Source of the DNA: a virus
DNA: 48,490 nucleotides
IMG/VR virus record: IMGVR_UViG_3300031787_000193
Coordinates: 1-48,490 of that record
Direction: 5' to 3' (one strand)
A model generated the notes under the pieces. It was given only the letters and a program-made list of their open reading frames with translations, ran no database searches and was not told the DNA's origin. The position numbers and the translations under genes are program-made. Positions 1,471 through 34,316 of this stretch are shown in pieces (the first letter of the stretch is position 1; each line of letters begins with the position of its first letter).

Positions 1471-4400
1471 TTACATAAAAGTTGCTAGCATTTTTACTTG
1501 CCACCCTGATGGGGTAGAAGCTCCAGTATTTATTTGTATTTGACCTGATACTATAGATGAAATAAATGTAATTGCGGAAGTATTGCCTATGTCTACTGTT
1601 GAATTATCGTAGTAGGATGTTGTTGTACCATTCCATGAAGTTACAAATTCACCTGCTCTAGAATTAGAACCACTAAATATTGTATATTTACCAAATAATG
1701 AAGTGTATGAACTTGTGTTTCGTGTAAATAAGTTATTTGGTCCTGGACTTGTACTTGGTGATATTGCTGAATAATCTGTTAGTGTTGTATTTAGTGTTAA
1801 AGTACTTCCTATTATAAAATTATTACTATAAGAAGCAGTAGCAGCTGTACCTGCGAATGTAGATGAATTGGAACCAGTATAACTATTAAATGAAGATGTT
1901 GTTACAAAATCACCACTCGGACCTCCTCCCGTTGCGCTAATAGTAACAACTCCTACCCCACTTGATGGTGAAATTGATATTCCACTACCTGTTACAATTT
2001 GTGTTACACCTGAACTACCTCCACCAAATGCTGATGAAGCAGTATAATAAAATTGACCACTTACAGTATCATATGTTACAACATTAGGTTGAAGTGTTGA
2101 TGTTAAATCTCTTACAGCTAAACTACCACTAATATCCAACGAACCAGTCATTTGGTGTTGGTTGTTTGGATTTAATTCAAACTTTCTATTAGCATCTGTA
2201 TCAAAACCGCCTGCAAAGAACTGTATTGGCATATTAGGTGTTGCATTACCTATATGAAGATGACTTCCAGTAGTATATAAGTAAGCATCATTTGGACCTC
2301 CTAGTAAACCTGTGAAGTTTTTACTGTTGATGCCCATATTAATATAATTACCATCTTCATCACCATTATCAGCTGTTGCTACAACGTCTGAGGATGCATC
2401 TGTACCAGCATTTGTATTATGTATATTAAGCTGTAAGTAGTTGTTTAAATCACCTTTACCACTTATTACGTTGAATGAGGTTGGGTGTGGTTGATAAACA
2501 TATAGTGCCTCAGGATTAGCTGTTGTATTAACATCTAAGTTAATAATAATACTTGTTGAACCTGATTGGTATATTGAGCTAGTTGCTAAAGTAGTATCTG
2601 TATCAAAATATGGGATATGTGGGGTCTTTCCACCTAATATATTAGATGCTGTAGCTGCATAGCTTGCACTTGTGGCATGTGAAGACGAATCAGCATATGA
2701 ACTACTTAAAGAATATGAGGATGATAAAGCATAGCTACTTGATAAGGCATATGAACTACTTAAGACATATGAAGCACTAAGAGCATAACTTGATGATAGG
2801 GCATATGAACTACTTAAGACATATGAAGCACTAAGAGCATAACTTGATGATAGGGCATATGAACTACTTAAGACATATGAAGCACTAAGAGCATAACTTG
2901 ATGATAGGGCATATGAACTACTTATACTATATGAGCTACTTAGAGCATACGAAGCACTCTCAGCATATGATGAACTTAATGCATAACTACTAGATAATGC
3001 ATATGAACTACTCAATGCGTATGAGGCACTAGTTGCAAAACTAGAACTTAAAGCATAAGATGAACTTAATGCATAACTACTCGATAAAGCATATGATGCT
3101 GAATTAGCGTGGCTTGAGCTCAAAGCATAACTACTCGATAAAGCATAACTTGAAGATAAACTATATGAAGAACTTTCAGCGTAAGAACTACTTAAACTAT
3201 ATGAACTTGATAAAGTATAGCTTGATGAAAATGCATATGAAGAAGATATTGCCTGACTTGAACTTAATGCATAGCTACTTGATAAGCTATAAGATGAAGA
3301 ATTTGCAAAAGAACTACTTAATGCATATGAAGCACTTAGTATTGAATTAGATCCATAGGGGCCGTATACATTTGAAGCTGTTACAAAGGATGCTGTTTGA
3401 GATATTAATGCGTTTGAAGCTGAGTTGGCCCAACTTGCAGTACCAATTAATTCTCCTGTAAATGAACCAGTAAATGAACCTGTATTACTTAAAAATTGAT
3501 CTACTCTATTTACTGTTAATATTACAGAAGGAATACCGGGATGTCCTCCTCCAGCAACTTCAGCTAATAATCTTACAGAAGTATCTGGTGAGTACCATAT
3601 TAATTGATAATAATCGTTTGCTGCAGCATTAACAAAGAAATTCCAAGCTGCTACATTTTTAGCATTATTACCAACTAAACTAATAGTTGTTGCAGTATCA
3701 GTAAGATCGATACCGTTTTTTCTAAGCCAAATTAATATTTCATCTGTTCCAGAATCAGTTTTATCAAGTTGAGCTGAAAATTGTATATCATAAACTCCAG
3801 CATTTTCTACCTTTATGTAGGTGTTAAATGGAGATGTTGATCCAGATATAGATACCCCATTTGAAATGTCTGTTGTATTAAAAGACATTGAACGAGGAAT
3901 ATTAGCTACTGGATTTGTTTGAGTGGTGGTATCATAAAAACTTCCATAAGATCCAGTTGCGGTATTAAACCCACCTCCTCCCCCAGTTGAACTAATAGTA
4001 ACTTGACCTAAACCATTTGTTGGAGATAATGATATATTTGATCCTGCTATTAATCTAGTTACACCTCCATTTGCTGCCCAACTAGCTGTAGTAGCAAATG
4101 AACTACTTAAAGCATAACTACTTGATAAAGCATATGAACTTGATTCAGCATGAGATGCCGATAGTGCATATGATGAACTCAATGAATAACTCGCTGATAA
4201 AGCAAAAGAAGATGATATAGTAAATGAAGCTGATGTTGCAAAAGAACTAGATAAAGCATATGAGCTAGACAATGCATAACTTGCACTTTCTACAAAAGAT
4301 GCACTTAACGCATAAGAACTAGATAATGCATAACTTGCACTTTGGGCGTTTGATGCTGATAAAGCATACGAAGCTGATATAGAAAATGAACTTGTTGATG

Positions 4401-5649
4401 CAAAACTTGATGAAACTGAAACTGATGATGATGTTGCAAATTTTACAGTTAATGGAGATCCAATCTCAGCACTACCTGATTTTAATATGATCTGATCATT
4501 ATTTGCACTATACAAAGCTATATTATCTACTCCTCCCCCAGTCCCACCAGAAATAGAAACATCAAATACATCTCCATTTCCTTTTTGAAATCTGATTGTA
4601 TTTGCTGATAATGCAGATGCAGTAATTACAGCATTGGGGGTGTATGAAGATGTTGAGGCAAATGAAGAAGATAAAGCATAACTACTTGACTCTACAAATG
4701 ATGCTGATAAAGCATAACTTGATGATAGAGCATACGAACTGGATAATGCATAAGAACTACTTATAACAAAGGATGCAGTTGTAGCATATGAACTTGATTC
4801 AACAAAAGATGCACTAGTTGCATATGATGAACTTAGAACATAAGAAGCTGAAATAGATTGAGATGCTGAATTTGCCCAAGAAGCAGTCCCATAAAAACTA
4901 CCAGTAAACGAACCAGTAAAACTACCTGTATTATATGAGGAGGTAAAACTGTTAAATGAACTAGTAAAACTATTAAAAGAAGATGTAGTTACAAATGAAC
5001 CTGTATCTATAGAGGTTACTGAACCAGTATCAACAGTTATAGTAAATTGAGAGGTGTCACCCTTGGTAAAAGTGATTTGATTTAATGTTGCCGAAGCAGT
5101 AACCAATAAACTACCTGTATCTGTGAAAGATCCACCACCCGAGCCAGTATCAATTGTTATGGTGAATTGAGAAGTATCTCCCTTGGTGAAAGTAACTTGG
5201 TTTAATATTGCCGAAGCAGTAACCAATAAACTACCTGTATCTGTGGGGGTTCCACCTGAACCTGTGTCAACAGTTAAATTAAACGAGGAACCATCACCTT
5301 TGGTAAATGTTAATATATTGGCGTTTATAGAACCTGTTACAAGCGCATTAGGAGTATTCGATGCAGTTGCTGCAGTTCCGAGTAAACTGCCTGTAAAACC
5401 GTTTACAGCGCTTATAGAACCAGTTAATGATACAACATTAGTAGTTTTATCAAATGTAAAATTTCCACTACCACTAGTGACACCGGCATCATTAAACTGA
5501 ACTGATTGATTTGGACCCGCTGGGGCTGCTACAGCTGTAACTGTAAACAATGAACCTGTTCCATCATAAACATTAGTACCATCGGTTTGTAAAACTCGCG
5601 GATATGTGTCTTCTATATTTTGGTTAGTAAAATCTAATGGTCCTGACAT
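1471..5649 (-). CDS. Giant hexapeptide-repeat tail fibre with C1q-like domain
   Basis: 1392 aa. Residues ~1-210 contain near-identical blocks of the form DTGSLLVTASA followed by FTKGDTSQFTIT. Residues ~210-540 and ~740-1080 are built from a 6-residue repeat of the type S-[SA]-[YF]-[AVS]-x-S, dozens of copies, a pattern expected for a beta-helical or fibrous trimer. Between the arrays (~558-715) lies a domain with the look of a C1q/TNF jelly roll (IKVENAGVYDIQFSAQL, LIWLRKNG). The C-terminal ~300 residues hold VTYDTVSGQFYYTAS and another compact domain ending GWQVKMLATFM. Likely a long tail fibre that reaches the host surface. At DNA level three 54-bp units are identical (2747-2908), showing recent expansion. 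Structure and receptor are inferred. Confidence 0.85.
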   Translation of the reverse strand: MSGPLDFTNQNIEDTYPRVLQTDGTNVYDGTGSLFTVTAVAAPAGPNQSVQFNDAGVTSGSGNFTFDKTTNVVSLTGSISAVNGFTGSLLGTAATASNTPNALVTGSINANILTFTKGDGSSFNLTVDTGSGGTPTDTGSLLVTASAILNQVTFTKGDTSQFTITIDTGSGGGSFTDTGSLLVTASATLNQITFTKGDTSQFTITVDTGSVTSIDTGSFVTTSSFNSFTSSFNSFTSSYNTGSFTGSFTGSFYGTASWANSASQSISASYVLSSSYATSASFVESSSYATTASFVISSSYALSSSYALSSSYALSASFVESSSYALSSSFASTSSYTPNAVITASALSANTIRFQKGNGDVFDVSISGGTGGGVDNIALYSANNDQIILKSGSAEIGSPLTVKFATSSSVSVSSSFASTSSFSISASYALSASNAQSASYALSSSYALSASFVESASYALSSSYALSSSFATSASFTISSSFALSASYSLSSSYALSASHAESSSYALSSSYALSSSFATTASWAANGGVTRLIAGSNISLSPTNGLGQVTISSTGGGGGFNTATGSYGSFYDTTTQTNPVANIPRSMSFNTTDISNGVSISGSTSPFNTYIKVENAGVYDIQFSAQLDKTDSGTDEILIWLRKNGIDLTDTATTISLVGNNAKNVAAWNFFVNAAANDYYQLIWYSPDTSVRLLAEVAGGGHPGIPSVILTVNRVDQFLSNTGSFTGSFTGELIGTASWANSASNALISQTASFVTASNVYGPYGSNSILSASYALSSSFANSSSYSLSSSYALSSSQAISSSYAFSSSYTLSSSYSLSSSYAESSSYSLSSSYALSSSYALSSSHANSASYALSSSYALSSSYALSSSFATSASYALSSSYALSSSYALSSSYAESASYALSSSYSISSSYALSSSYALSASYVLSSSYALSSSYALSASYVLSSSYALSSSYALSASYVLSSSYALSSSYALSSSYSLSSSYADSSSHATSASYAATASNILGGKTPHIPYFDTDTTLATSSIYQSGSTSIIINLDVNTTANPEALYVYQPHPTSFNVISGKGDLNNYLQLNIHNTNAGTDASSDVVATADNGDEDGNYINMGINSKNFTGLLGGPNDAYLYTTGSHLHIGNATPNMPIQFFAGGFDTDANRKFELNPNNQHQMTGSLDISGSLAVRDLTSTLQPNVVTYDTVSGQFYYTASSAFGGGSSGVTQIVTGSGISISPSSGVGVVTISATGGGPSGDFVTTSSFNSYTGSNSSTFAGTAATASYSNNFIIGSTLTLNTTLTDYSAISPSTSPGPNNLFTRNTSSYTSLFGKYTIFSGSNSRAGEFVTSWNGTTTSYYDNSTVDIGNTSAITFISSIVSGQIQINTGASTPSGWQVKMLATFM
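2747..2908. repeat. Three perfect 54-bp tandem repeats in the fibre gene
   Basis: Three consecutive 54-bp units start at 2747, 2801 and 2855, each beginning gcatatgaactacttaagac. They read the same in every base I compared and are followed by a diverging fourth copy at 2909. Each unit encodes 18 residues, that is three hexapeptides. Identity at synonymous positions indicates very recent duplication by slippage or unequal recombination. Confidence 0.9.
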
Positions 5650-6715: not shown

Positions 6716-8857
6716 TTAGTTAGTTGGAGAAAACGTTTTCCAATCTGTACCATTATAGATAGACAATATATTTGTAGTAGGATTAAAATACATTGAACCA
6801 GCTTTTGGATTATTTGGATTTCCATTACTATTTGTTGGAATCATAACCGAACCTCTTGCTGATGCATCAACATCTACTGTAAATCCGTCTTTTCTATTTG
6901 AAGAAATTCCAATACCAACTATAAACTTGGAAGCAGTATTATTTTGAACATTCCACGAACCTACTACTGTTTGGTATGAGCCTGAGGCTATTGTGCCTTC
7001 TCCTCCGGCATGTGAATATGAACCTGAGGCTATTGCAAAAAATCCTTCAGCATGTGAGAAGTCTCCATTTGCTTCAGAATCAAATCCCTCCACGTGTGAA
7101 TAATTCCCTCTTGCTTTAGTATCTACTCCTTCAGCGTGTGAAGCAATACCTGATGCTGATGTTAGATATCCTTCAGCATGTGAATAAATTCCTGAGGCTA
7201 ATGTTCTAAATCCTTCAGCATGTGAAGCAATACCTAATGCTAATGAACTAGAACCTTCAGCATGTGAAAAACTTCCTGATGCTATAGCATTTTGTCCTTG
7301 AGCATGTGAATGTATACCAGATGCTATAACATATTGACCTTGTTCTAAACTATGTGATTCATAGTTATATAAAAAATATTCTTCAGCTCCGAATACTCCA
7401 GGAAAAGAACCACTATAGTATTGAATGCCATATAGTGGTTCATCAGGATATGTTTCTACTCCAATATTAGTTACAGAACTACTAATGTATGTATTATTTA
7501 TTACACTAGAACTATACGATTGAGTAATAAAACTACTTGTATAATTGTTATTAATAATTGTATTATTTCCAAGAGCGGAAGAAGCGGTATAAGTAACTAA
7601 CCCGGTTGATGTATGATATGTTAAAACTTGTCCATTTCCACCTGATTGGGCTGCTCCGCTTACATATAGTGAACCACTTATTTGAAAATCATTACCTGCT
7701 GCAAATACTAAGTTTTTTCTTACTATATCTGAAGTTCCATTTCCTATAATGAATGCGGCATTTGTTGTAAGTGGTAAATTGAATTTACCTTGAACATGTT
7801 GATAATCACCTTCAGCTATAGTTGATTGACCTTCAGCGTGTGCGTAATCTCCTGAAGCTTCTGTAGATCGGCCTTCAGTATGTGAACTAAATCCTGTTGC
7901 TATTGAACCAGATCCTTCAGCATGTGAATAGTCTCCTTTGGCAACAGTACCAAATCCTTCAGCATGTGAATATGAGCCTGAAGATTGTGTTGATCTTCCC
8001 TCAGCATGTGAATACCATCCTACTGCTTCGGTGAGGAGACCTTCAGAGTGAGCTACTTGACCTGAGGCGGTTGTGCTATTTCCTTCAGCATGTGCGTAAT
8101 CCCCAATGGCCTGTGTTAAATATCCTTCAGCATGTGAGTAATCTCCTGATACAATTGTTTGTCTACCTTCAGCGTGTGAATAATTTCCTGTTGCTATTGA
8201 AGCAGTTCCTTCAGCGTATGAATAATTTCCTGTTGCCTGAGTAGATCTACCTATAGCTCGACTATAATCTCCAGAGGCTGTTGTTAAAAATCCTTCAGCA
8301 TGTGCATATCGTCCTGAAGCTAATGTGAATGCACCTGCTGAGTGTGAACCGGTATTAGAAGCTACTGTTGAAACTCCTTCAGCATGTGAATAAATTCCTG
8401 AGGCTGTTGTTAATTGACCTTCAGCATGAGACCATCGGCCTGATGCTAATGTAAAATTTCCTTCAGTATGTGAATATAGACCAGAAGCAGAGGTAGATGC
8501 TCCCATAGCAAAAGAGTAAAGACCAGCAAAATTATTCATGATAGCTGGGTTACCAATTGTTCCTATACCTGCTCCTAATCTTAAATTACCTATAAGTTCT
8601 GTAGGTCCTTGATTAATAAGTGTGTCTGAACTTGAAATATAAAGTGATCCAATTACTACAATTGAACCACTAACATTAAGGGAACCGGTGATAGTTGAAT
8701 TACCAACTACATCATTTGAACCTGATCCTCCTATAGATGTAGTTCCTTCACTACCGGAAATGGTAATAGAATTTGATCCTATAGTTGTGGTTCCTCCACT
8801 ACCTGAAATAATGATAGAGCCTGATATTACTGAGAGTATTCCTTTAATTCTGGGCAT
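6716..8857 (-). CDS. Tail fibre with YadA-head (SHAEG) repeats
   Basis: 713 aa. Residues ~113-357 and ~501-632 are two arrays of a 14-residue repeat, typically G-x-Y-S-H-A-E-G-x-x-T-x-A-S. This is the signature of the YadA/Hep_Hag head domain of trimeric autotransporter adhesins, a left-handed parallel beta-roll. Between them (~430-465) is an Asn/Ser/Thr/Tyr-rich segment that may be a stalk. The N-terminal 90 residues are GS/T fibre type (ISGSIIISGSGGTTTIGSNS), and the C-terminus (GSMYFNPTTNILSIYNGTDW) is typical of phage fibre tips. LTYHTSTGLVTYT (~411-423) is shared with neighbouring fibres. There is no signal peptide, so it is a virion adhesin and not an autotransporter. Receptor binding is inferred. 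Confidence 0.9.
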   Translation of the reverse strand: MPRIKGILSVISGSIIISGSGGTTTIGSNSITISGSEGTTSIGGSGSNDVVGNSTITGSLNVSGSIVVIGSLYISSSDTLINQGPTELIGNLRLGAGIGTIGNPAIMNNFAGLYSFAMGASTSASGLYSHTEGNFTLASGRWSHAEGQLTTASGIYSHAEGVSTVASNTGSHSAGAFTLASGRYAHAEGFLTTASGDYSRAIGRSTQATGNYSYAEGTASIATGNYSHAEGRQTIVSGDYSHAEGYLTQAIGDYAHAEGNSTTASGQVAHSEGLLTEAVGWYSHAEGRSTQSSGSYSHAEGFGTVAKGDYSHAEGSGSIATGFSSHTEGRSTEASGDYAHAEGQSTIAEGDYQHVQGKFNLPLTTNAAFIIGNGTSDIVRKNLVFAAGNDFQISGSLYVSGAAQSGGNGQVLTYHTSTGLVTYTASSALGNNTIINNNYTSSFITQSYSSSVINNTYISSSVTNIGVETYPDEPLYGIQYYSGSFPGVFGAEEYFLYNYESHSLEQGQYVIASGIHSHAQGQNAIASGSFSHAEGSSSLALGIASHAEGFRTLASGIYSHAEGYLTSASGIASHAEGVDTKARGNYSHVEGFDSEANGDFSHAEGFFAIASGSYSHAGGEGTIASGSYQTVVGSWNVQNNTASKFIVGIGISSNRKDGFTVDVDASARGSVMIPTNSNGNPNNPKAGSMYFNPTTNILSIYNGTDWKTFSPTN

Positions 8858-10448: not shown

Positions 10449-12134
10449 TTATAGGGTATTCAAACCACTAACATAGATCTTACCGTAGAATTCAGGACGT
10501 AACATTTTCTTAGCATAACGAGTCATTAAACCTTTACGTGGAGTGAAGGTTGCTGGATCGTACACAAGTGGTGTCATGATCAATGGAATATATGGAGCAA
10601 ACACAGCACCTGTTTCTAGGAATTGTTTACCACGGAATCCCATCAAGATAACGTTTTCAGTCATATAAGGGTTCTTATAAACTGTATAACGGTTATTGAT
10701 AGCACCTACTTTCTGAACACCCATTGCGTATTCCATGTTTGCAGCATCACCATTAGTATTTGCAGCAAATCCTGGGATTGATTCAAGAACTGTTGCTACT
10801 GTTGGAGAACATACTAAGAAGTTAGCACCACCACGAAGTGTTAATTGGTGAATCTTGTTAGAAATTTTCTGCATTTTAGTACCAAGAGTTTGGAACCATC
10901 CACCTTGAGTGTTGTAGAATCCATTATTACTTACAGCAGCATTAGTAATTGTACCTGTAGCAAAATCAATAAATTGATTGTTTACAGCTGACCATACTTC
11001 TGTTCCAGCTGCAGCATCTTCGATCAACATATCAAGAATTTCTAAATCAATTTCCATTGAAATGTATTCACTCATTACGTTAGTCAATTCAGCTTCAGCA
11101 TCGATGTTCTGGTAAGCGTTAAGATCCTGAGCAAATTCAGGTGTCCATACTGCTTTCAACTTTTTAGTTTTAGCAACAATCGCTTGTGATTGCATCTTGA
11201 TGTTGATTTCTGGAATAACAATTGTAGATGCACTTTCAGCATTTGGAACTGAGAATGAAGGAGAAGTTGTATCTTCAAAATCACCACGATTATTATCAGC
11301 TGTAATTTTATTGTATTCTATCAACCAAGTTGAACCAGCTGCTGGAATTCCAGAGGCTGTGAAAAAGAATGCAATAGTGTTAGCTGTGTAGTTATAAGAA
11401 GTAAAGGCAGGTAAAGTACCAGCTAATGGGAAATTTGAACCTGAAGTTAATACAAATCCTCTAACTGCATCTGGATCAAAATTACTTAAAATTGAAGCTG
11501 ATGTAGGAACTGTTACTTTAATAATTCTTGAAGCTGCTGCTGATGCTGATAGAGCAGAATCAAAATTTACTTCTGCCCAAGAAGCTGAATTAGCAGAGTA
11601 ACCTGCTAATGAACTTGAAAAAGATGATGAAAATTGGTTAGTAGAATAAGTAAAACGACCTTCACCATATAAACCACCAGTTGTGCCAGTTGTTTGGAAT
11701 GGGAATTGACCAGTTGCATTACGAGCACCATAAAGTGAGTTACCTGATGTGAATGGATTTTTATCAGTTCCGTATTGGAAATCTAGAAAGAATACTAGTC
11801 CAGAAGGTAAATTCATTGGTTGTACAGAAACGAATTCTTTAGCAGCAATCGATCCGAATACTTTACGTACTAATGGAAGAGCGATACCTGCCCAGTTTTC
11901 AGACTGACCAACAGTAAATGTACCAGCAGTTGGAGAAGCACCAGTTTGACTAGTTTCTACTACTAATTGTTTTGCTTGGTTCTCGAGGATAAGAGCCATG
12001 TTGTTTTTTTCTACCTCTGAACCGAAGCCTTCAAGTAAGCCTGTTTTAGACCACTTGGTTGCTAATCTAGCGGCATCACTTTGAAGTGATTTCCACGGAT
12101 TAGCGGATTCGAGTAATTGATTGATTGAACTCAT
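10449..12134 (-). CDS. gp23: Major capsid protein, T4 gp23-like
   Basis: 561 aa against 521 for T4 gp23. Recognisable gp23 blocks in order: VQPMNLPSGLVFFLDFQYG (N-terminal third), then KLKAVWTPEFAQDLNAYQNI with DAEAELTNVMSEYISMEID, and finally FLETGAVFAPYIPL near the C-terminus. The N-terminal region with LLESANPW and LENQAK matches the propeptide. A gp21-type cleavage site may be LVVE60/T61, comparable with LTE/A of gp23. Residues ~150-270 contain a Ser/Ala-rich stretch (NQFSSSFSSSLAGYSANSAS) that accounts for the extra length, perhaps a surface insertion. It follows the scaffold gene as in T4 and ends in a strong terminator. The A-rich leader has no Shine-Dalgarno sequence. Confidence 0.97.
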   Translation of the reverse strand: MSSINQLLESANPWKSLQSDAARLATKWSKTGLLEGFGSEVEKNNMALILENQAKQLVVETSQTGASPTAGTFTVGQSENWAGIALPLVRKVFGSIAAKEFVSVQPMNLPSGLVFFLDFQYGTDKNPFTSGNSLYGARNATGQFPFQTTGTTGGLYGEGRFTYSTNQFSSSFSSSLAGYSANSASWAEVNFDSALSASAAASRIIKVTVPTSASILSNFDPDAVRGFVLTSGSNFPLAGTLPAFTSYNYTANTIAFFFTASGIPAAGSTWLIEYNKITADNNRGDFEDTTSPSFSVPNAESASTIVIPEINIKMQSQAIVAKTKKLKAVWTPEFAQDLNAYQNIDAEAELTNVMSEYISMEIDLEILDMLIEDAAAGTEVWSAVNNQFIDFATGTITNAAVSNNGFYNTQGGWFQTLGTKMQKISNKIHQLTLRGGANFLVCSPTVATVLESIPGFAANTNGDAANMEYAMGVQKVGAINNRYTVYKNPYMTENVILMGFRGKQFLETGAVFAPYIPLIMTPLVYDPATFTPRKGLMTRYAKKMLRPEFYGKIYVSGLNTL

Positions 12135-12174
12135 CGTTTTTAAAATTTGTTTTTAGTTTGTTTTTAGTTTAATT
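12135..12174 (-). promoter_or_regulatory. A-rich leader of the major capsid gene
   Basis: The 40-nt gap between scaffold and capsid genes reads, on the coding strand, as an A-rich leader with AAACTAAAAAC directly repeated and AAATTTTAAAAACG just before the ATG. There is no GGAGG-like element. Similar AAACAAA leaders precede the scaffold and histone-like genes, consistent with SD-independent initiation of highly expressed Bacteroidota-type genes. Confidence 0.4.
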
Positions 12175-13149
12175 TTACTTTTTGTTTCCGAATGCTAATT
12201 CACGCATACGTGAGAAAGCATCGTTTTCGATAATTGGTGTTGATTTAGCTGTACCTAATGCTTTAGAAGCGGAACCTAATGACTCTTGAATTGGAGATTT
12301 TTTAACTGGTGTTTTCAAATTCTCTAATAGAGTTTCATATACTAATTGTGCTTCTTTTTTAGACGTAGCTTTATCAAATGCTGTTAAAACCTTTACTTTT
12401 TGTGACTCGGTTAAAGACTTATTACGGAAGATTTTGTTAGTGTAAAGAAGTTTAGCATTCAACAAATTGATTTCGTTAAGTTCTGATTTAAGAGTTTTGA
12501 TTGCCTCATAAGCTTCTTCAAGTTCCTCTTGCATCTTGTCTTTTTCTTCATAAACTTCTTCACTTTCAAGTTCAGCTAAAAGTTCATCAAGACCAATTTC
12601 TTCGTCTAATTCTTCTTCAGCTAAAAGTTCATCAAGATTAACTTCTTCATCAATTTCTTCTTCTTCAGCATCTATTTCTTCTTCAGCACCTTCTTCATTT
12701 TCCATACCTTCATGACCAGCTTCAAGTTCACCTGCAGCTACCATGTCTTTAATAACATCTTCAATGAAAGATTTCAAATCATCTTCATCCATGTCTTCAA
12801 TAGACATTTCCTCTTCAGATTCCTCTTCTTCGGATTCTTCTTCTTCCTCTTTAGCTTCGAAAATAGATTCCTCTATTTCTTCATCTTCAAGTTCAGCAAG
12901 AAGTTCATCTAATGAAATTTCATCCATAGATTCTTTTTCTTCTTTCATTTCTTCTGTCTCATCTTCATACATTTCCTCCATCTTAATTTCCTCTTCGTTT
13001 TCCATTTCCTGGAGTTTAGCGGAGAGTTTTTCCTTAAGATACGGAGTGAATGCTTCTTCGAGAGCAGCTTTTGCGTTTGCTATTGCTGTTTCTTTAACAG
13101 ATTTAGCGTCCGCGATTGCTTCTTTAAGCAAATCTCTGTTTGTTGCCAT
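12175..13149 (-). CDS. Acidic prohead core scaffold protein (gp22-like position)
   Basis: 324 aa, extremely acidic. Residues ~45-205 are dominated by E and D with a repeated LDELLAELE module (four copies in variants such as VNLDELLAEEE), and the C-terminal third is a lysine-rich coiled coil (~205-260). The N-terminus (LLKEAIADAKSVKETAIANA) is helical. It ends FSRMRELAFGNKK, a motif recurring in other proteins of this phage, for example FERMQKLAFGN. The gene lies directly between protease and major capsid genes, where T4 has the scaffold gp22. Similarity to gp22 is in position and composition, not clear sequence. It is expected to fill the prohead and be degraded by the protease. A hairpin in its leader may regulate it. 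Confidence 0.85.
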   Translation of the reverse strand: MATNRDLLKEAIADAKSVKETAIANAKAALEEAFTPYLKEKLSAKLQEMENEEEIKMEEMYEDETEEMKEEKESMDEISLDELLAELEDEEIEESIFEAKEEEEESEEEESEEEMSIEDMDEDDLKSFIEDVIKDMVAAGELEAGHEGMENEEGAEEEIDAEEEEIDEEVNLDELLAEEELDEEIGLDELLAELESEEVYEEKDKMQEELEEAYEAIKTLKSELNEINLLNAKLLYTNKIFRNKSLTESQKVKVLTAFDKATSKKEAQLVYETLLENLKTPVKKSPIQESLGSASKALGTAKSTPIIENDAFSRMRELAFGNKK

Positions 13150-13176
13150 TTTTTCCTTAAATTTGTTTGTTGGAAA

Positions 13177-13209
13177 TACGTTTAATGTGAGGAGAATCCT
13201 CGAAACGTA
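13177..13209 (-). promoter_or_regulatory. Hairpin in the 5' leader of the scaffold gene
   Basis: On the coding strand TACGTTT pairs with AAACGTA (7 bp), enclosing a small internal loop and an inner GAGGA/TCCTC stem with a 3-nt loop. It ends 27 nt before the scaffold ATG. Just upstream the coding strand reads TTGCTTATAATAATTTT, a plausible -10 region. It could act as a translational operator or as a 5' stabilising hairpin. Confidence 0.4.
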
Positions 13210-13288
13210 ATAAAATTATTATAAGCAATGCCTCATAAATTGGGCACATTCTAATATACATATATAAAAATTATTCAAAAATGCAGAG

Positions 13289-13318
13289 AAAAAAAAAGAA
13301 AGGCGCATTTCTGCGCCT
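13289..13318 (-). terminator. Rho-independent terminator upstream of the scaffold gene
   Basis: On the minus strand AGGCGCA, loop GAAA and TGCGCCT form a 7-bp stem with a GNRA-type tetraloop, followed by TTCTTTTTTTTT. A second hairpin (CCTAAAA/TTTTAGG, 13323-13341) lies just before it. Together they close the terminase-portal-protease unit and separate it from scaffold and capsid genes. Confidence 0.9.
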
Positions 13319-13346
13319 CGGTCCTAAAAGACTATTTTAGGAGGGG

Positions 13347-13469
13347 TTAAAGTTTATTTAAAAAATTAATTATTTCTAAAAGTTTATTTTCTTTACGAAG
13401 AGATATAATCTTAGAATCTATATAATTTACTAAATCTAAAATTGATTTATTATCTTCATTTAATATCAT
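13347..13469 (-). CDS. Tiny putative coiled-coil protein, 40 aa
   Basis: A frame of 40 codons starts at ATG 13469 inside the end of the preceding 57-aa gene (14-nt overlap) and stops TAA just before the double terminator. It starts MILNEDNKSILDL and ends LLEIINFLNKL. The spacing of I and L suggests one amphipathic helix able to form a coiled coil. I recognise no family. Its placement inside the head-assembly unit and before a terminator makes a real gene plausible, but it is short and AT-rich, so chance is possible. T4 has comparably small core genes (67, 68) in this region. Confidence 0.45.
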   Translation of the reverse strand: MILNEDNKSILDLVNYIDSKIISLRKENKLLEIINFLNKL

Positions 13470-13629
13470 GACCTTCATCTTTTAATGTTTGTTTTAATTT
13501 TTCAAAAGATTTAGATATATTTTTAAGATATTGATCATACCATAAATGAGCTTTATATTCTTCTTCAGTAATTAAACCTGCAAGTTTTTGCATATGGAGA
13601 AATTCTTCATTTGATTGTTGTTGTTCCAT
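13456..13629 (-). CDS. Small head-region protein with MQKLAG motif
   Basis: 57 aa from ATG 13629, two bases after the protease stop; a longer frame exists but would need a TTG start at 13662 inside the protease gene. The key feature is EEFLHMQKLAGLITEEEYK at residues ~8-26. The same core (MQKLAGI with a following E) occurs near the C-termini of the 177-aa and 221-aa proteins, and in variant form in the scaffold and the 172-aa protein. The rest is a basic helix (KNISKSFEKLKQTLKDEG). It is probably a small core or accessory protein of the prohead. The (I/L)-x-E site suggests processing by the neighbouring protease. Confidence 0.7.
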   Translation of the reverse strand: MEQQQSNEEFLHMQKLAGLITEEEYKAHLWYDQYLKNISKSFEKLKQTLKDEGHDIK

Positions 13630-13631
13630 AG

Positions 13632-14249
13632 TTAAAATATTGGACAAGTACCGTTTGAACAAAGTATTTCAGTAAGTATAGAATTAACTTTAGAATAGGG
13701 GTTTGAATTAATTGATGTAGATAATCCCTCATGTATTTGTCCTACAGGATGCATCCATGAACCTGGATTTGAAGGTGTGGAAACAAAATCAAAACATAGT
13801 AGTTCAAAGTCATCTTGTACTTCTAATACTTCACCTACTTGTTTTAAACTACCCATTCCACGAGATGAAACACCTACCTTAATACCTGATTCAATTAATG
13901 CTTTAAGGATATTTCCTGATGGTGTAGGTAGAATTTCAATTGCACCCATTACCATATCTCCTTTCCACCATATTTTTTTAATATTGTGGGAGACATTTTT
14001 TAAGTTAATGATTTGAGAATCTGGATGGTCTAGTTCACCTAGAGCTCTATTTTCTCTAACCATATCCATATACTTATCTATCTCACGTTCCCATAACTCT
14101 TTAGCATAATATCTACCATTACCATTTTTTACTTCACAGGTAGCTAATATCCCTTCAACTATTGGGTTGCCAGATATCCTATCACGAGACTCAGTAAGTG
14201 ATTTAGGTGATACATTGAATGGGGTGACTTCTATAAGTAATGGCTTCAT
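13632..14249 (-). CDS. gp21: Prohead protease, T4 gp21-like
   Basis: 205 aa from ATG 14249, giving a 4-nt gap to the upstream gene and an AAAGGA about 12 nt upstream; a 12-residue longer form would need GTG and overlap that gene. Recognisable features: NGNGRYYAKELWEREI (~42-57), ALGELDHPD with the likely catalytic His (~69-77), and VGVSSRGMGS with the likely catalytic Ser (~126-135). LLCFDFVSTPSNPGS follows at ~151-165. This is the serine-protease fold of the T4 prohead/herpesvirus-assemblin type. It should cleave scaffold, capsid propeptides and internal proteins after (I/L)-x-E inside the prohead. Position between portal and scaffold is as in T4. Confidence 0.95.
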   Translation of the reverse strand: MKPLLIEVTPFNVSPKSLTESRDRISGNPIVEGILATCEVKNGNGRYYAKELWEREIDKYMDMVRENRALGELDHPDSQIINLKNVSHNIKKIWWKGDMVMGAIEILPTPSGNILKALIESGIKVGVSSRGMGSLKQVGEVLEVQDDFELLCFDFVSTPSNPGSWMHPVGQIHEGLSTSINSNPYSKVNSILTEILCSNGTCPIF

Positions 14250-14253
14250 AATT

Positions 14254-16263
14254 TTAGTATCCTTTAATTTGGAATCCTTCACCACCTGATTTGTATCGAG
14301 TGTCAGGATTGATATGTTGAGCTATAAGTGATAATATACGAGCGTCTGCTCTAGTTATTTCTTTATCTACACCCCATTGGTCTTTTCTAACATCATAGTA
14401 AATAAATCTAAATTTTGTCTCGCCAGGAACAACAGATGAAGGTACTTCAATTTTTACAATAACTTCTTCATAATCACCGGATTGTGGTTTAGCATAAGAT
14501 ACATCTGCAATAGTACTACCCATTAAAGGTCTACCTTTGAATTTGTTAAAAAATGTTTCACCCATATTCATTGTTCTACGATCTTGACCTCGTTCGCGAG
14601 ATACATCAGTTGCTCTTTTAAAGAGTTCAGGTGATATTTCGTTTACTAATTCTTCCTTAATAAGATTACGAATCAATGAACGAAGTTTTTGTTCTGCTAC
14701 CAATGGTGCACTTTCACCTTTAGCTAAAACCCAATATCCTGTTTTATCTTTTTTAGGAGATATATTTAAATCAACATAATGCATTTTTAAACCAGAATCC
14801 ATTTTAGGATTAATTTCTTTTTTAATTTTACCTCTAATAGCAGATGGAAGTTTATCAGCAAGTACATCTGCTAATTTAGATTGTTTTTTAAGTTTTTCTC
14901 TACTAGAACGACCTCTCTCTAATTCATCTAAAGCATTTTTAACAAATGAAGAAACATACATATACACACGTTTATCTCCTGGTTTGGAAATTAATTTAAT
15001 ACTTCCAGGTTGAGCATCATTTATCGTACTAATTACTTCTTTATCTAAAAATAAAGCACGGGGAATCTTTTGTGTTCCACCAGTTGGACCTGTTTTTCCT
15101 TTAATAGATACAGGACCTTGATCCATTGCTTCTTTTAATTTTCTCATTTCATCATTTATCCATGCATTAGCATTACCAGTACCTTCAATTCCAGTTTTTA
15201 CTATCTTTCCATTCTTATATATGGTATATGTATTGTCTTTTTGTAATTCCTTAGTAAACATTTTATCTATATCACTTAATCCAGATTTTTTATATCCTAT
15301 AGGATCATTGAACATACCAATTTTTTCTTCTAAATGACTAGATAAACCTCTTCCACCAGCAGGATCGGTGAAATCATCATCTATCATGCTCATTATATCA
15401 TCATATTTTCCATATTTTTTTAGGATTTTTATCATTTCGGAAACTTTAATAGTTGTTTCGTAATCTCTATTATTTTCAAAAGTATTAGCTATCTCATCAT
15501 TTGTTCCTGTTTTTACTAAACGAGCAAAATCATTAATTGCATCTGCTCTATCTTGGATATTTTCTTTTAATTTGATTCTCTTTTCTACACCAGTAACACC
15601 TTTGTCAGGCATTTCTTTTACTTTTTTAGGCATTGTAGTTTCTGCTTCTTGATCACCTAATGAGTCTTGAACATTTGATTTTGGCTCTTTAATTTTTACT
15701 TCAGTATCTAAATCACCATATCCTGATGCTTTATGTTTGCCTTTTGGTTCTTTAGGTTCACCTAAACCAGGAGCTTCAGTTGTATATCCTACACCTTTAA
15801 CTCCAAACATTCCGTCTTTAGTATAGAATAAAGGATCCTTAGCTAAGTTTTTAACAACCATAGCTTTAATTTCATCACCTGTTTTTCCAGCATTTTTCTC
15901 ATCTCTCATTTCAGCATAAAAGCCTTTCATGATTTCATTGAAATTAATATTGTCAGCATTTTTAGTGTCTGAATTATCGTAGGCGTGTGCTTGTTTATCT
16001 TTAACTTCTTTTGAAGTTTCTTTTTCTTCGGCTTTAACCTCTTCAGCTAAAATTTTCTTCCAATCGTAGATATCAAATCCTTTAGCTACAACACCACCTG
16101 CTGCTTCGCTAATGATTTGTTTTGATTTCAATACATTAGTTGCTGTATTAAAGTCAGTATATTGATTAAAGTATTCTGGAAATAAGCTACGAGCGTGTTT
16201 TAAGAATTGGTCTTTATTTCCGTTGCCACTCTTAATTGAGTTATATTGTTCTTGAAGTGTCAT
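14254..16263 (-). CDS. Large putative prohead core protein
   Basis: 669 aa, no family I can name. It starts MTLQEQYNSIKSGNGNKDQF, and I recall similar N-termini in aquatic T4-like phages at this locus. Residues ~45-60 contain KQIISEAAGG and ~70-80 ILAEEVKAEE, both possible gp21-type sites. Residues ~90-240 are charged and low-complexity; ~250-470 look like helical domains. KLRSLIRNLIKEELVNEIS (~526-544) repeats the (I/L)-x-E helix seen at the N-termini of many proteins here and precedes a separate ~125-residue C-terminal domain, which could be released by cleavage. It sits where T4 has genes 67/68. Start overlaps the upstream stop by ATGA. Confidence 0.75.
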   Translation of the reverse strand: MTLQEQYNSIKSGNGNKDQFLKHARSLFPEYFNQYTDFNTATNVLKSKQIISEAAGGVVAKGFDIYDWKKILAEEVKAEEKETSKEVKDKQAHAYDNSDTKNADNINFNEIMKGFYAEMRDEKNAGKTGDEIKAMVVKNLAKDPLFYTKDGMFGVKGVGYTTEAPGLGEPKEPKGKHKASGYGDLDTEVKIKEPKSNVQDSLGDQEAETTMPKKVKEMPDKGVTGVEKRIKLKENIQDRADAINDFARLVKTGTNDEIANTFENNRDYETTIKVSEMIKILKKYGKYDDIMSMIDDDFTDPAGGRGLSSHLEEKIGMFNDPIGYKKSGLSDIDKMFTKELQKDNTYTIYKNGKIVKTGIEGTGNANAWINDEMRKLKEAMDQGPVSIKGKTGPTGGTQKIPRALFLDKEVISTINDAQPGSIKLISKPGDKRVYMYVSSFVKNALDELERGRSSREKLKKQSKLADVLADKLPSAIRGKIKKEINPKMDSGLKMHYVDLNISPKKDKTGYWVLAKGESAPLVAEQKLRSLIRNLIKEELVNEISPELFKRATDVSRERGQDRRTMNMGETFFNKFKGRPLMGSTIADVSYAKPQSGDYEEVIVKIEVPSSVVPGETKFRFIYYDVRKDQWGVDKEITRADARILSLIAQHINPDTRYKSGGEGFQIKGY

Positions 16264-17069
16264 GTTATTTTTTTTTCTTTAAATAAAGTTATTAAATCAT
16301 CTAAATAATCTACTGCCAAATCGGTACCGTATTTGATTTTAAAATCAGGATTGGTTTTGTAATATTCCATTGTATCGGTTTTAGCACTTTTAAGCAACGG
16401 AAGTAATGTATTTAATTTGTCCTCAATCTTATCAAAATCGGTCATTCTGGTGTCAATAAATTGTTTTAACGACGGATCTTGTATGTTTAATGAATTTATG
16501 TATGAGTCAGTTGATTCGTTTTCTTCTAATTTTTTAGTCCATAGATCTTTATGTTCTAAACCTTTGGCTTGCTTATGAAGTTTTTCAGCATCAACTGGTT
16601 TCCATCCTAATTTATAGTAATAGATATTTTGGGCTCCTTTTGCTTTTTTATTTGGATTAAAAGCATATTTCTGAGCTGTGTTTTCACTTTGTCCTGATGT
16701 ATAAGTAGCTGCATTTACTCCTGCTCCTGTGGCACTCATTTCTTTTAAATAATTTTGAACGAGTTCCTTTAACATTTCCTCGTTTGCTGCTTTTAAAAGA
16801 CTATATTGTTTAGGATAATTTTCCCTCATGTGAGATTTATATTGATTGAATAAGTAATTAAATCCTTTATATATCTCTTTAAATTTAGGATCTTTTTTTA
16901 CTTCATCAAATAATAAAAATTTCTTATATTCTTCGTTAAGCTTTTTAAATGCTTTATATATTCCTGGGAAGTCAGCATTGTATTTAACATCAAAAGTAAC
17001 TCTACCTGTTTCAGGATCTGTTTCTGATGGTGTTAATTCGAATGATTTTTTTGGGTCGTTACTTTCCAT
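16260..17069 (-). CDS. Head-assembly region protein, function unknown
   Basis: 269 aa, soluble and rich in K, Y and N. Residues ~30-115 are helical with many aromatic residues (FPGIYKAFKKLNEEYKKFLL). Residues ~114-165 hold a conserved-looking segment (SATGAGVNAATYTSGQSENT, then AFNPNKKAKG and YYYKLGWKPV), a pattern I associate with head-region proteins of aquatic T4-like phages. The C-terminal ~80 residues are helical. It is the middle of three genes between portal and protease, overlapping the 669-aa gene by ATGA and the 286-aa gene by 11 nt. Possible core, portal-associated or head-vertex factor; no activity is visible. Confidence 0.72.
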   Translation of the reverse strand: MESNDPKKSFELTPSETDPETGRVTFDVKYNADFPGIYKAFKKLNEEYKKFLLFDEVKKDPKFKEIYKGFNYLFNQYKSHMRENYPKQYSLLKAANEEMLKELVQNYLKEMSATGAGVNAATYTSGQSENTAQKYAFNPNKKAKGAQNIYYYKLGWKPVDAEKLHKQAKGLEHKDLWTKKLEENESTDSYINSLNIQDPSLKQFIDTRMTDFDKIEDKLNTLLPLLKSAKTDTMEYYKTNPDFKIKYGTDLAVDYLDDLITLFKEKKIT

Positions 17070-17919
17070 TAGCTTGTTGAAGTTCTTCTAGCAAATCACA
17101 ATATTGAAGTAGATTTACTATATGTTCGTTATTTACTTTATCGTTTTTTCCCAACCCAACTAAAAACGTTGCTACTTCATTTATTTTAATTTTAGTAACT
17201 TGGTTTTTAGTTTTTTTATTTAACGAAACTAATTCATTTTTCATTTCACCAATTTTAGAATTGTAGAATATTTTTAATTTATCTGTGTTATCTACACTAT
17301 TGATGAATTCTTTAAGTATTAATTTTTTATTAGTGCTGAAATCTGAGTATTTGGTATTGAATTTTTCTAATAAAATTCTATATGTTAAAATACGAGTATC
17401 TCTATCATATTGAGAAAACTCTTCCATAATACTATCTTTAGGCTTGTTTGTCTTTTTTGTAGAGGAAGTTAAATGTTCCAACAGTACTAATCTATTAGTA
17501 ATAATCTGCTCGTGAGATTGTTTTTTATCACTACCCGTTGATTCTATTAATGTATAAATAGCGGCTTGAGATTTATAATGAGGGAGTTTTGTTTTAAAAA
17601 ATTCCTCTAAACTATAGTGATCTTTAATCTCATTAATTAAATTATATTTTTGTCTCTTAAGAGCTGAGCGATTTAGCTGTTTTGCACTTTCTAAAATTGT
17701 ACTAATGACAACTTCAGCTTTACCTTCGGTTAAGTTGGTGCGTTTAAGTAAACTATCATACAATTTATACTCTCTTCCTAGCTCAGTTTTACTAAAGTAT
17801 TTTTTTAGAATATTAGTAGCCTCTGATGTTTTGCCAGATAGAGTATCTGAGGTAATTTGTCGTACTAAAAGCTCGAATAAAATACCTGTGTTTTTAAATT
17901 TCGAATGTTTAATTAACAT
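17059..17919 (-). CDS. Head-assembly region protein, mostly helical
   Basis: 286 aa, basic and almost entirely helical, starting MLIKHSKFKNTGILFELLVR. Segments such as ATNILKKYFSKTELGREYKL and LEELQQ near the C-terminus suggest long amphipathic helices; no catalytic motif is seen. It lies immediately after the portal gene and before two other unknown genes of the head cluster. Positional analogy with T4 gp67/gp68 suggests a prohead core or shape-determining role, but there is no sequence link to them that I can see. An ATATTTATAATTAAAA motif is 17 nt upstream of the ATG, so transcription may begin here. Confidence 0.72.
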   Translation of the reverse strand: MLIKHSKFKNTGILFELLVRQITSDTLSGKTSEATNILKKYFSKTELGREYKLYDSLLKRTNLTEGKAEVVISTILESAKQLNRSALKRQKYNLINEIKDHYSLEEFFKTKLPHYKSQAAIYTLIESTGSDKKQSHEQIITNRLVLLEHLTSSTKKTNKPKDSIMEEFSQYDRDTRILTYRILLEKFNTKYSDFSTNKKLILKEFINSVDNTDKLKIFYNSKIGEMKNELVSLNKKTKNQVTKIKINEVATFLVGLGKNDKVNNEHIVNLLQYCDLLEELQQANGK

Positions 17920-17936
17920 CTAAATGTTTATTTTAA

Positions 17937-17946
17937 TTATAAATAT
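17937..17946 (-). promoter_or_regulatory. Candidate late-promoter motif ATATTTATAA
   Basis: The coding strand reads CATATATTTATAATTAAAATAAAC, 17 nt before the ATG at 17919, in the 38-bp gap after the portal gene. Confidence 0.45.
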
Positions 17947-17957
17947 ATGAAAAAATA

Positions 17958-19823
17958 TTAATCTCGCAATTGATTTTCATCAAGTAATGATTCTTTTGCT
18001 TTATCTATTTGGAAAACTAATTTTTTTTCTATTTCATTTAAAAACTGTTTATTTTTTAGATATGTAATCTCATTGATAGGTTTGTTATTGAAATCAGGCT
18101 GATCATCTACTTTCATTGATTGTCTACCTAATCTATCTTTTCCTAAAGTATTATCTTGAGTATTGATATTTGTAACTTTTTCTTTAGGACGACCTAATTC
18201 TACATCAGTAGCATATCCATCAGGTACATTTCCTGGATCTGTCATTGTCCTGCCTTTACCATAAAGTGAAGCTAAATCATGTGGTGTACCATATGATTTT
18301 CCTGTTTCTAATGGATCATTTCCTTCTTCAGTAATTTGACCTAATCTAAACTTACGCTTAGCATCTTGTATAATAAGATCTCTATATTCATCAAATTGAT
18401 CTTCACTAAAGTGGAATACATTATGGTAGATCCAATCTGTAGGCAGTAGTTGGGCTTCCATGATATTTTTAGCTAAATCTACTTTTTCTTTCATTAATGC
18501 AATACGTTCTTGATCGTATATAATTGATGGGGTAGTTAACGAAAGTTCGAAATTAGTTAATGTTTCGCCTCTATACCCTTGAGTATATAAATGCACTAAT
18601 GCTATTTTATATAATTCAGAAAGTACAATACGTTGTAATCTATCAATTGTACGAGCAAAACGAATATCTTCAGCCGCTAATGTTGCTTTACCAGTTAAGT
18701 CTTTCTCATAACCCATAAATGCTTTAGGTACTTTTAAAGCAGCAAACAATTTATCTCTTAAATAAGCTACATCTTCAATACCATTATATTCTAAACCTTT
18801 AGTGGTATCAATTTTAGTTGTTTGATCATTACCGCGAACAGGAATATAAAAATCTTCCAACATGTTTTGCATGTTATATTTTAAATTATATTCACCTGTT
18901 TTTTCGTCTATATATGGTGTTTTTTTCATTGTGGTAATAGTCTTCTTCATGAAGTTTTCTACTTCATTAGGAGGAATAGCACCAACATTGATATAAAAAA
19001 TACGTTTTTCTGGGGCACGAGAGATTCTATGAATCAACATAGCATCTTCCATTAACACATATTGTTTAAATAATTTACGAGCTGGTTCAATATATGAACG
19101 ACCATAAGGAAGATAGTTAACATCAGTTAATAATCTAAAATGAGCCATTTCATAATTATCAAAATAAATCCCATTTGCTTCATCTTGCCTCTGGTTAGGG
19201 ACAGGATATTGACCTGCAGTTCCACCAACATATCCATCAGGAGAAAATGCGAACCTTACTGCTGAAGGGTTTTCTTTATCATAATTCTCCTGGCGCATGA
19301 TATGATATGCGGTATAAGGAATAACATTGTATACTCCAAATTTTTCAGCGATTTCTAATTTTAAAAAGAAATCACCATATTTATTCATTTGACGAATCCA
19401 CGACCACATATTAAATTCTATGTTCAAAACATCGTAGAATAAGTTATAAAGAATTTTTTGTACATCTTCATCTGAACTACGAATTTGAAGTACCTCACCC
19501 ATCTCATTTTTTAATGTACATTCATCTGAGATTATATCTAGAGCAGAAGCAACAATTGCATCATTATCCATTACATCGTAATCTGAGTATAATTGGGCTC
19601 TTAAATATTGATAGTTAACATTTAATTGTTGACCATAAAGTGAGGTAGCATTCGCGGAATATATCCTACTATATCTATCAATTAATGAATTGTTTTTATA
19701 TTGTCCACTTTGTTGAATTGAATCAACATCCATTACTTTAATTTGATTCCCACCCTCATTACGGATGATGACATCAGTTGAAAATAATCTTTTTAATCTA
19801 GTAAAAATACTTGTATCTGCCAT
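17958..19823 (-). CDS. gp20: Portal vertex protein, T4 gp20-like
   Basis: 621 aa, somewhat longer than T4 gp20 (524). The gp20-type pattern is clear: YSDYDVMDNDAIVASALDII (~80-100) and DECTLKNEMGEVLQI follow the N-terminal clip region. Further on are MNKYGDFFLKLEI, RISRAPEKRIFYINVG (~265-285) and KAFMGYEKDLTGKATLAAED (~370-390). The dodecameric portal forms the DNA gate of the head, nucleates prohead assembly and docks the terminase. The extra length is mainly at the C-terminus (~500-621), a charged flexible tail. It follows the terminase gene after 17 bp; the T4 sheath and tube genes (18, 19), which lie between 17 and 20 in T4, are absent here. Confidence 0.96.
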   Translation of the reverse strand: MADTSIFTRLKRLFSTDVIIRNEGGNQIKVMDVDSIQQSGQYKNNSLIDRYSRIYSANATSLYGQQLNVNYQYLRAQLYSDYDVMDNDAIVASALDIISDECTLKNEMGEVLQIRSSDEDVQKILYNLFYDVLNIEFNMWSWIRQMNKYGDFFLKLEIAEKFGVYNVIPYTAYHIMRQENYDKENPSAVRFAFSPDGYVGGTAGQYPVPNQRQDEANGIYFDNYEMAHFRLLTDVNYLPYGRSYIEPARKLFKQYVLMEDAMLIHRISRAPEKRIFYINVGAIPPNEVENFMKKTITTMKKTPYIDEKTGEYNLKYNMQNMLEDFYIPVRGNDQTTKIDTTKGLEYNGIEDVAYLRDKLFAALKVPKAFMGYEKDLTGKATLAAEDIRFARTIDRLQRIVLSELYKIALVHLYTQGYRGETLTNFELSLTTPSIIYDQERIALMKEKVDLAKNIMEAQLLPTDWIYHNVFHFSEDQFDEYRDLIIQDAKRKFRLGQITEEGNDPLETGKSYGTPHDLASLYGKGRTMTDPGNVPDGYATDVELGRPKEKVTNINTQDNTLGKDRLGRQSMKVDDQPDFNNKPINEITYLKNKQFLNEIEKKLVFQIDKAKESLLDENQLRD

Positions 19824-33783: not shown

Positions 33784-34316
33784 AATCCTAGTTGCTTTAA
33801 TTCGTTAATTGTATTTGATGTTGAAGTATGTAAAATACCTATACCTCCTGTGGCCTTCCATTCATTAATATTATCAGGGCGATCGTCGATAAGTATTCGA
33901 TTTTTTCCAGAATAATTTTTTTTCTTTTCTCTATTTGCTAAAATTAATTTAGTCCCAGGTATATTTTCTTTTACCCACAAATGTTTTCCATAGCGAGAAG
34001 ATGCTTCTCTAGAAGGAGCTGAGAGTAAAGATGGGTTATATTTTTTAATATAGTCCCAAAGTTGTTTACCATCAGACATCCATGGCATTTTAGACCAAAA
34101 TTGAACACCTATTTTTTTATCTATAAGTTCCCAAAATTCTTTAATGCCATATTTTGATTCGTATTCTTTAGGAGACATTCCTCCAAATTGTTCAAATCGT
34201 CTATCAAAATCACATAACACGCCATCCATATCACAAAATATTTTATATTGTGCTACTTGGGCAGCTGTTTCCTCTTCCCTAATTTGCTTATATATGTCTG
34301 TTAATTTATATTTCAT
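33780..34316 (-). CDS. HAD-superfamily 5'-nucleotidase-like phosphatase with targeting helix
   Basis: 178 aa. N-terminal MKYKLTDIYKQIRE/EETAAQ is the (I/L)-x-E helix, an extension before the enzyme core. HAD motif I is FCDMDGVLCDFD (nucleophile D29, acid D31); motif II is probably LLSAPSRE. Lys residues follow, and motif IV is ILIDDRPDNI (~141-150). The CDMDGVLCDFD form and the short cap are typical of deoxyribonucleotidase/5'-nucleotidase-type phage enzymes. It would dephosphorylate a nucleotide, or another phosphomonoester; the substrate is unknown. It is ATGA-coupled to both neighbours. The extension argues for delivery in the virion. Confidence 0.85.
   Translation of the reverse strand: MKYKLTDIYKQIREEETAAQVAQYKIFCDMDGVLCDFDRRFEQFGGMSPKEYESKYGIKEFWELIDKKIGVQFWSKMPWMSDGKQLWDYIKKYNPSLLSAPSREASSRYGKHLWVKENIPGTKLILANREKKKNYSGKNRILIDDRPDNINEWKATGGIGILHTSTSNTINELKQLGL

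Follow-up and report, generated by a model that had tools for sequence, protein, structure and literature searches.

The fibre gene and its setting

The window considered here is the whole of a 48,490-nucleotide stretch of DNA, positions 1 to 48,490 of the IMG/VR virus record IMGVR_UViG_3300031787_000193. Its minus strand carries every open reading frame (ORF) longer than 205 amino acids (aa), among them a gene (1471-5649, minus strand) for a 1392-aa fibre protein that contains long arrays of a six-residue repeat, or hexad. A major capsid protein of the T4 gp23 type (PF07068, E 3.3e-75) and a portal protein of the gp20 type (PF07230, E 5.7e-66) are both recognized by Pfam in the window, which also encodes PhoH and a terminase; judged by these gene products, the virus belongs with the T4-like phages. 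We consider it quite probable that the 1392-aa protein is a trimeric T4-like tail fibre in which repeat stalks lie between exchangeable modules, and in which a single 54-bp unit has recently been multiplied.

All parts of the fibre are encoded on the minus strand and are given here from the N-terminus onward. Residues 1-110 (5320-5649) form the probable attachment end. This part has matches in 22 related loci (12 after removal of duplicates), at 42-79% identity over part or most of its length; the loci, designated L001 and so on, were fetched by sequence-pattern and capsid searches, with the capsid relatives taken as the best 80 of 200 loci. Next comes a tandemly duplicated segment of 40 residues (5024-5245; 120-bp period, 88% matches), a duplication older than the 54-bp one. 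Hexad array 1 (4639-4908) has 15 units and array 2 (4075-4416) has 19, with longest exact repeats of only 14 bp and 19 bp, respectively. A C1q/TNF-like jelly-roll domain, residues 562-719 (3493-3966), lies between array 2 and array 3 (2638-3339), which the hexad finder delimits at 39 units. Array 3 holds the exact block of 54-bp period (2746-2924), consisting of three identical units and a further 17 bp; it represents a recent duplication whose copy number is unproven. Finally, residues 1289-1392 (1474-1785) form a beta domain that may have the fold of T4 gp9. Thus, the initial annotation was right in describing a 1392-aa fibre whose six-residue arrays are interrupted by a C1q-like domain, although the range it gave for them, 2640-4870, falls slightly short at array 1, which starts at 4908.

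The protein as a whole matches no Pfam or PHROG family at E 0.1. In a sequence search of the PDB, the sole hit below E 0.001 was a low-complexity repeat protein, and one further row had E 0.39. A scan of genome contigs with the protein found no relative, and the gene has no megablast match among plasmids.

Globular domains

In an AlphaFold2 model built from a 44-sequence alignment, residues 562-719 form a jelly roll, 128 residues of which have a pLDDT of 90 or more. Structure comparison by VIA places this domain closest to F-BclA and BxpB (Z 16.1), followed by the C1q domain of Caprin-2 (15.6), a protein of cyanophage A4 (14.6), and the CBD of the A-1(L) short tail fibre (14.3). The best 50 VIA rows span Z 16.1 to 13.4 at a root-mean-square deviation (rmsd) of 1.9-3.9 A. 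Consequently, the middle of the fibre is predicted to have the C1q/TNF fold. A search of the PDB with the alignment of this domain gave a single row, at E 0.19.

At the other end of the protein, the last 104 residues align with T4 gp9 (1qex) over 102 residues (VIA Z 9.8, 2.5 A), and Foldseek reports the same protein at E 2.1e-3. The mean pLDDT of this model is 42, with block means of 57-83 from residue 1300 onward. The only Pfam or PHROG row for the C-terminal part is a family of unknown function (E 0.03), and among named phages the part has no tblastn match at E 0.01.

The hexad arrays

The hexad has the consensus L-S-(S/A)-S-(Y/F)-A and occurs 73 times in the three arrays. Position 4 is Ser in all 73 units (one of Ser and Thr being required by the finder itself), and Tyr or Phe occupies position 5 in 64. 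The longest hexad chain in 2000 shuffles of the fibre protein was 5, and chains in eight stretches from named phages were never longer than 3. Neither the arrays alone nor the C1q part drew a Pfam or PHROG row with E below 0.26 (limit 10), and no description of such a hexad stalk was found in the titles and abstract openings of the open-licence literature. The fibre is nevertheless ordinary in kind, even though its stalk has no matching Pfam or PHROG family.

Two kinds of evidence bear on how fast the arrays evolve. First, when two of the three 54-bp copies are removed from array 3, the identity of codons between its hexads stays at z -1.8 to 1.0 for lags 1-10; in arrays 1 and 2 it is z -1.4 to 1.7 for lags 1-8. 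Hexads outside the block thus share synonymous codons only at the level of chance, which argues that the arrays are old: in array 3 the protein pattern has been kept while the synonymous sites show no trace of copying. Second, six groups of near-identical loci on different contigs (at least 99.95% identity: L005/L006, L009/L011/L051, L014/L046, L018/L020/L021, L057/L058, and L101/L104) have shared hexad arrays that are equal in unit count and align with no gap, and in five of the six the arrays have 6 units or more. In a more distant pair, L081/L086 (96.6% identity), which has a 4-unit array, there are 6 gap positions in 1182 columns. The proposal that the arrays as a whole evolve rapidly is therefore not supported, given the lack of excess codon sharing at lags 1-10 and the lack of array indels within the six groups.

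For statistics on spacing, 19 arrays were pooled from 10 records, one of them the window, after collagen-like arrays of L032 and L049, which the finder had also taken, were dropped. Amino-acid identity between hexads is raised at even spacings (lag 2, z 4.5; lag 4, z 2.9), with no such rise at lag 3 (z -0.2), and codon memory at lag 2 does not match the amino-acid signal (z 1.2). This periodicity in sequence suggests that the arrays may have a structural register of 12 residues. If so, each step contributed by the 54-bp unit, which is 18 residues long, would be an odd one in this register.

Two known stalk types were also considered. The left-handed beta-helix has three hexads per turn, and its hexapeptide pattern, PS00101, is [LIV]-[GAED]-x2-[STAV]-x. 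This pattern fits 0-3 of 70 units in any register, and the corresponding 18-residue register is not seen; the reading was rejected. Relaxing the pattern to admit aromatics lets 55 of 70 units fit in one register, and a beta-helix fold need not leave an 18-residue register in the sequence. A collagen-like (Gly-X-Y) stalk was rejected since Gly is present in just 2 of the 73 units. Collagen-type repeats (PSGSQG and TTGTQG) do occur in long ORFs of L032 and L049, a different stalk among the related loci.

A recent 54-bp duplication

The situation within the block at 2746-2924 is quite different from that in the rest of the arrays. As first noticed from the sequence, the units at 2747-2800, 2801-2854, and 2855-2908 are the same at every base. 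The 54-bp period is perfect over 179 bp, corresponding to an exact self-repeat of 125 bp, whereas the units flanking the block on its two sides differ from the 54-bp unit at 16 and 19 of 54 bases. The unit occurs three times in the window, each time perfectly, when none would be expected. When the synonymous codons of array 3 were shuffled 1000 times, no in-frame repeat was longer than 36 bp, compared with the 125 bp observed. This is also the longest exact repeat of the entire window, the next being 38 bp once the block is set aside, and among 23 arrays compared, a set that includes collagen-like arrays and near-duplicates, those outside the window have exact repeats of 48 bp at most. Because the three units show no difference while synonymous sites elsewhere are similar only by chance, a very recent local change in copy number is well supported. 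In this respect the initial annotation, which had inferred a very recent copy-number change from the three units, holds for the local event, but a copy number of three is not established.

The doubt about the number comes in part from other records of the same virus. IMGVR_UViG_3300008450_000139 (loci L001, L064, and L144) matches the window at 100% identity for 19,324 bases and breaks off at 2811, 114 bp into the block. It is the sole other record reaching the block among those found, and its last 114 bp, equal to 2811-2924 of the window, contain two exact 54-bp copies. The contig of L074, which is identical to the window over 7,956 bases (10790-18745), stops short of the fibre gene. In searches that may have missed some records, other viral contigs contain no exact match to a 35-base pattern taken from the unit or to either of two patterns on the block's left side. 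Thus, the window and L001 each have two exact copies or more, and the third is unproven.

These findings raise the question of whether the three identical units are partly a product of assembly, such that the true virus has two copies, or more than three, and a short-read assembler wrote three. In a k-mer graph, spelling out three units requires k above 125 and four requires k above 179; the usual ceiling of k for 150-bp reads is 127, so three would be the maximum that such a graph can give. That the block holds the window's longest exact repeat, that an otherwise identical record ends within it, and that its patterns are lacking in other viral contigs are all in keeping with this explanation. 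Furthermore, the break appears to track the exact block rather than hexads generally: 4 or more hexads lie within the last 130 bp of only 1 of 58 contig ends, that of L001, compared with 23 of 3000 interior windows, and general breakage of contigs in hexad arrays was accordingly rejected. The block therefore looks like a tandem repeat left unresolved by short-read assembly. However, L001 also has two exact copies, which places a tandem duplication in two records and is not compatible with pure artefact unless the two share reads. On balance, an assembly contribution to the number three is a serious possibility, rated a little below even. The fresh block lies where another record of the same virus breaks off, so copy numbers of such exact repeats in public viral contigs are not to be taken literally.

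Exchange of fibre modules

The closest complete relative is L057, which is identical to L058 over the 21 kb fetched. Relative to the window, the adjacent 202-aa protein is 97% identical, the capsid 81%, the first 40 residues of the fibre 88%, and its C-terminal 389 residues 85%. In nucleotides, the two are 92% identical over 537 nt, a stretch that starts in the last part of the gene upstream and covers roughly 210 nt at the beginning of the fibre gene. Between these conserved ends, however, the C1q domain is only 65% identical to that of the window, and there is a single array of 9 units. Since both ends are kept while the middle is another one with 9 units, the difference in length has come with replacement of a module. 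A second ORF of L057 (16689-18359; 557 aa) also contains a hexad array, this one of 13 units.

The opposite combination is seen in L003, L004, and L007, whose capsids are 56-62% but whose C1q domains are 79-84% identical to those of the window (L003: C1q 83%, capsid 56%). The identity of the C1q domain thus does not track that of the capsid, and the fibre modules are mosaic. This agrees with the shuffling of C1q genes described, in the portions of the two reports used here, for environmental phages, in which C1q domains lie in variable host-recognition genes and variants pass between phage lineages (PMC7468147, PMC3909814). Those portions describe no hexad arrays flanking C1q, unlike the arrangement in the window. 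Among the 28 C1q modules with readable flanks, all have the hexad motif within 20 residues upstream and all have it within 40 residues downstream, whereas random stretches of the same ORFs have it in 19% and 28% of cases, respectively. It should be noted that this count leaves out modules with short flanks or lacking the GGVT landmark and that related loci are not independent.

Models for the fibre

Taken together, these results have led to the following model for the fibre. Runs of hexads would make up long stretches of stalk, holding apart the N-terminal attachment end, the C1q-fold domain, which would trimerize and may bind the host, and the gp9-like C-terminal domain. The length of the stalk would be mostly old and constant within one virus, while middle modules would be swapped between viruses by recombination, with hexads flanking the C1q module on both sides. 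Finally, one 54-bp (18-residue) unit at 2746-2924 would have been duplicated in tandem very recently, through slippage or unequal recombination, lengthening array 3 by one or more 18-residue steps. In this way, the analysis separates two features that look alike in the bare sequence: an old, codon-saturated protein repeat and, inside it, one fresh duplication at the level of DNA.

Several observations weigh against this model. The C1q part (residues 520-760) finds no Pfam family even at E 10 and is assigned to C1q by fold only, and the gp9 match depends on one model, that of mean pLDDT 42. When modelled as a monomer, the array comes out unfolded (pLDDT about 25). Two of the six search patterns sit in the C1q domain, which biases the loci toward similar C1q domains. 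No fibre chaperone was recognized among the 20 window proteins scanned, and the lead to a host consists of capsid similarity and one binned contig.

Comparison with known systems provides partial parallels. In Anabaena myophage A-1(L), the jelly-roll CBD of the short tail fibre (PDB 8ke9) aligns with the C1q-like domain over 136 residues at Z 14.3 and 13% identity; this fibre is a trimer whose stem is a helical bundle, where the fibre in the window has hexad repeats instead (PMC10966104). T4 gp9 may share the fold of the C-terminus, but it is a 288-residue connector chain that has no such arrays, and the T4 long tail fibre is made of several proteins. In crAss-like phages, with predicted Bacteroidetes hosts, tandem BACON repeats associated with the tail are described as grown by duplication in one lineage; these repeats are whole domains rather than hexapeptides (PMC6949934). 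BclA of the Bacillus exosporium (F-BclA, 9h38; BclA, 1wck) resembles the fibre in joining a repeat stalk to a C1q-like domain (fold Z 16.1 and 15.6), but its stalk is collagen-like and it is a spore protein, whereas the hexads are poor in Gly and belong to a phage. The parallel, a repeat stalk with a C1q trimer domain and a length tied to the number of repeats, would therefore be an analogy in how the two work, not in membership of a family.

A bolder version of the proposed model may also be entertained. The arrays could represent a type of stalk fold not described before, having a register of 12 residues and common to many uncultured T4-like phages, that serves both as a spacer and as a common seam for the exchange of adhesin modules, so that length and specificity evolve through one repeat. 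We regard this as tentative and rather doubtful. If it were true, the seam would help in studying how adhesins are rebuilt in uncultured phages.

It has also been suggested that the repeats tune fibre length or host range. In such a scheme, the 54-bp units would be a contingency tract, that is, a switch keeping many fibre lengths in the population and so adjusting reach or host range. Identical in-frame units of 18 residues would be well suited to being gained and lost often, and there are precedents: a study of T4 gp37 is said to connect duplications of small domains with host range, and Sylvestre in 2003 reportedly connected BclA repeat polymorphism with filament length. However, the constant unit numbers in the six groups of near-identical fibres and the limit of 48 bp on exact repeats in all other arrays compared make a switch unlikely.

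Finally, it is very improbable that selection against DNA recombination keeps the codons of the arrays different, with the triplication as a lapse of this guard, because Ser codon homozygosity in the arrays equals that in 22 other ORFs (0.288 vs 0.291, P 0.43) and codon diversity is no higher than in the rest of the gene (0.270, P 0.78), so that plain saturation suffices. The arrays are more diverse in Ser codons than the neighbouring YadA-like fibre (0.288 vs 0.359, P 0.0008), AGY makes up 41% of their Ser codons compared with 24% in the 22 other ORFs, and the synonymous identity of neighbouring hexads is slightly under chance (z -1.6 in the 19 arrays; -1.9 when those of the window are removed). 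The last of these deficits, however, had been z -2.7 in the other loci before collagen-type arrays and a near-duplicate were taken out, and codon scrambling under selection was rejected.

Host and neighbouring genes

The named-phage capsids closest to that of the window are those of Flavobacterium phage immuto (58%), Microcystis phage Mel-JY01 (50%), and Rhodothermus phage RM378 (37%). In bacterial genome assemblies, a single capsid relative was found (62%), on a 22.6-kb contig binned in a metagenome-assembled genome (MAG) of Flavobacteriaceae. From these similarities, the host is probably a member of the Bacteroidota, perhaps of the Flavobacteriaceae. The first 9 kb of the window have no megablast match among named phages, and no Rfam family matches the window at the gathering score.

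Three other genes on the minus strand may be mentioned. A second fibre-like protein of 713 aa (6716-8857) has repeats of a SHAEG motif and matches YadA head repeats (PF05658) at 25.5 bits, just above the cut-off of 25, as well as phrog_25468 at E 1.2e-74. A protein resembling FAD/NAD-dependent oxidoreductases (24408-25769; PF07992; phrog_12409, dehydrogenase) has a gene that shares its orientation with those of the terminase and portal and lies upstream of both. Lastly, a 647-aa protein (34313-36256) has an N-terminal part resembling cytidylyltransferases, followed by a sub-threshold match to RegB.

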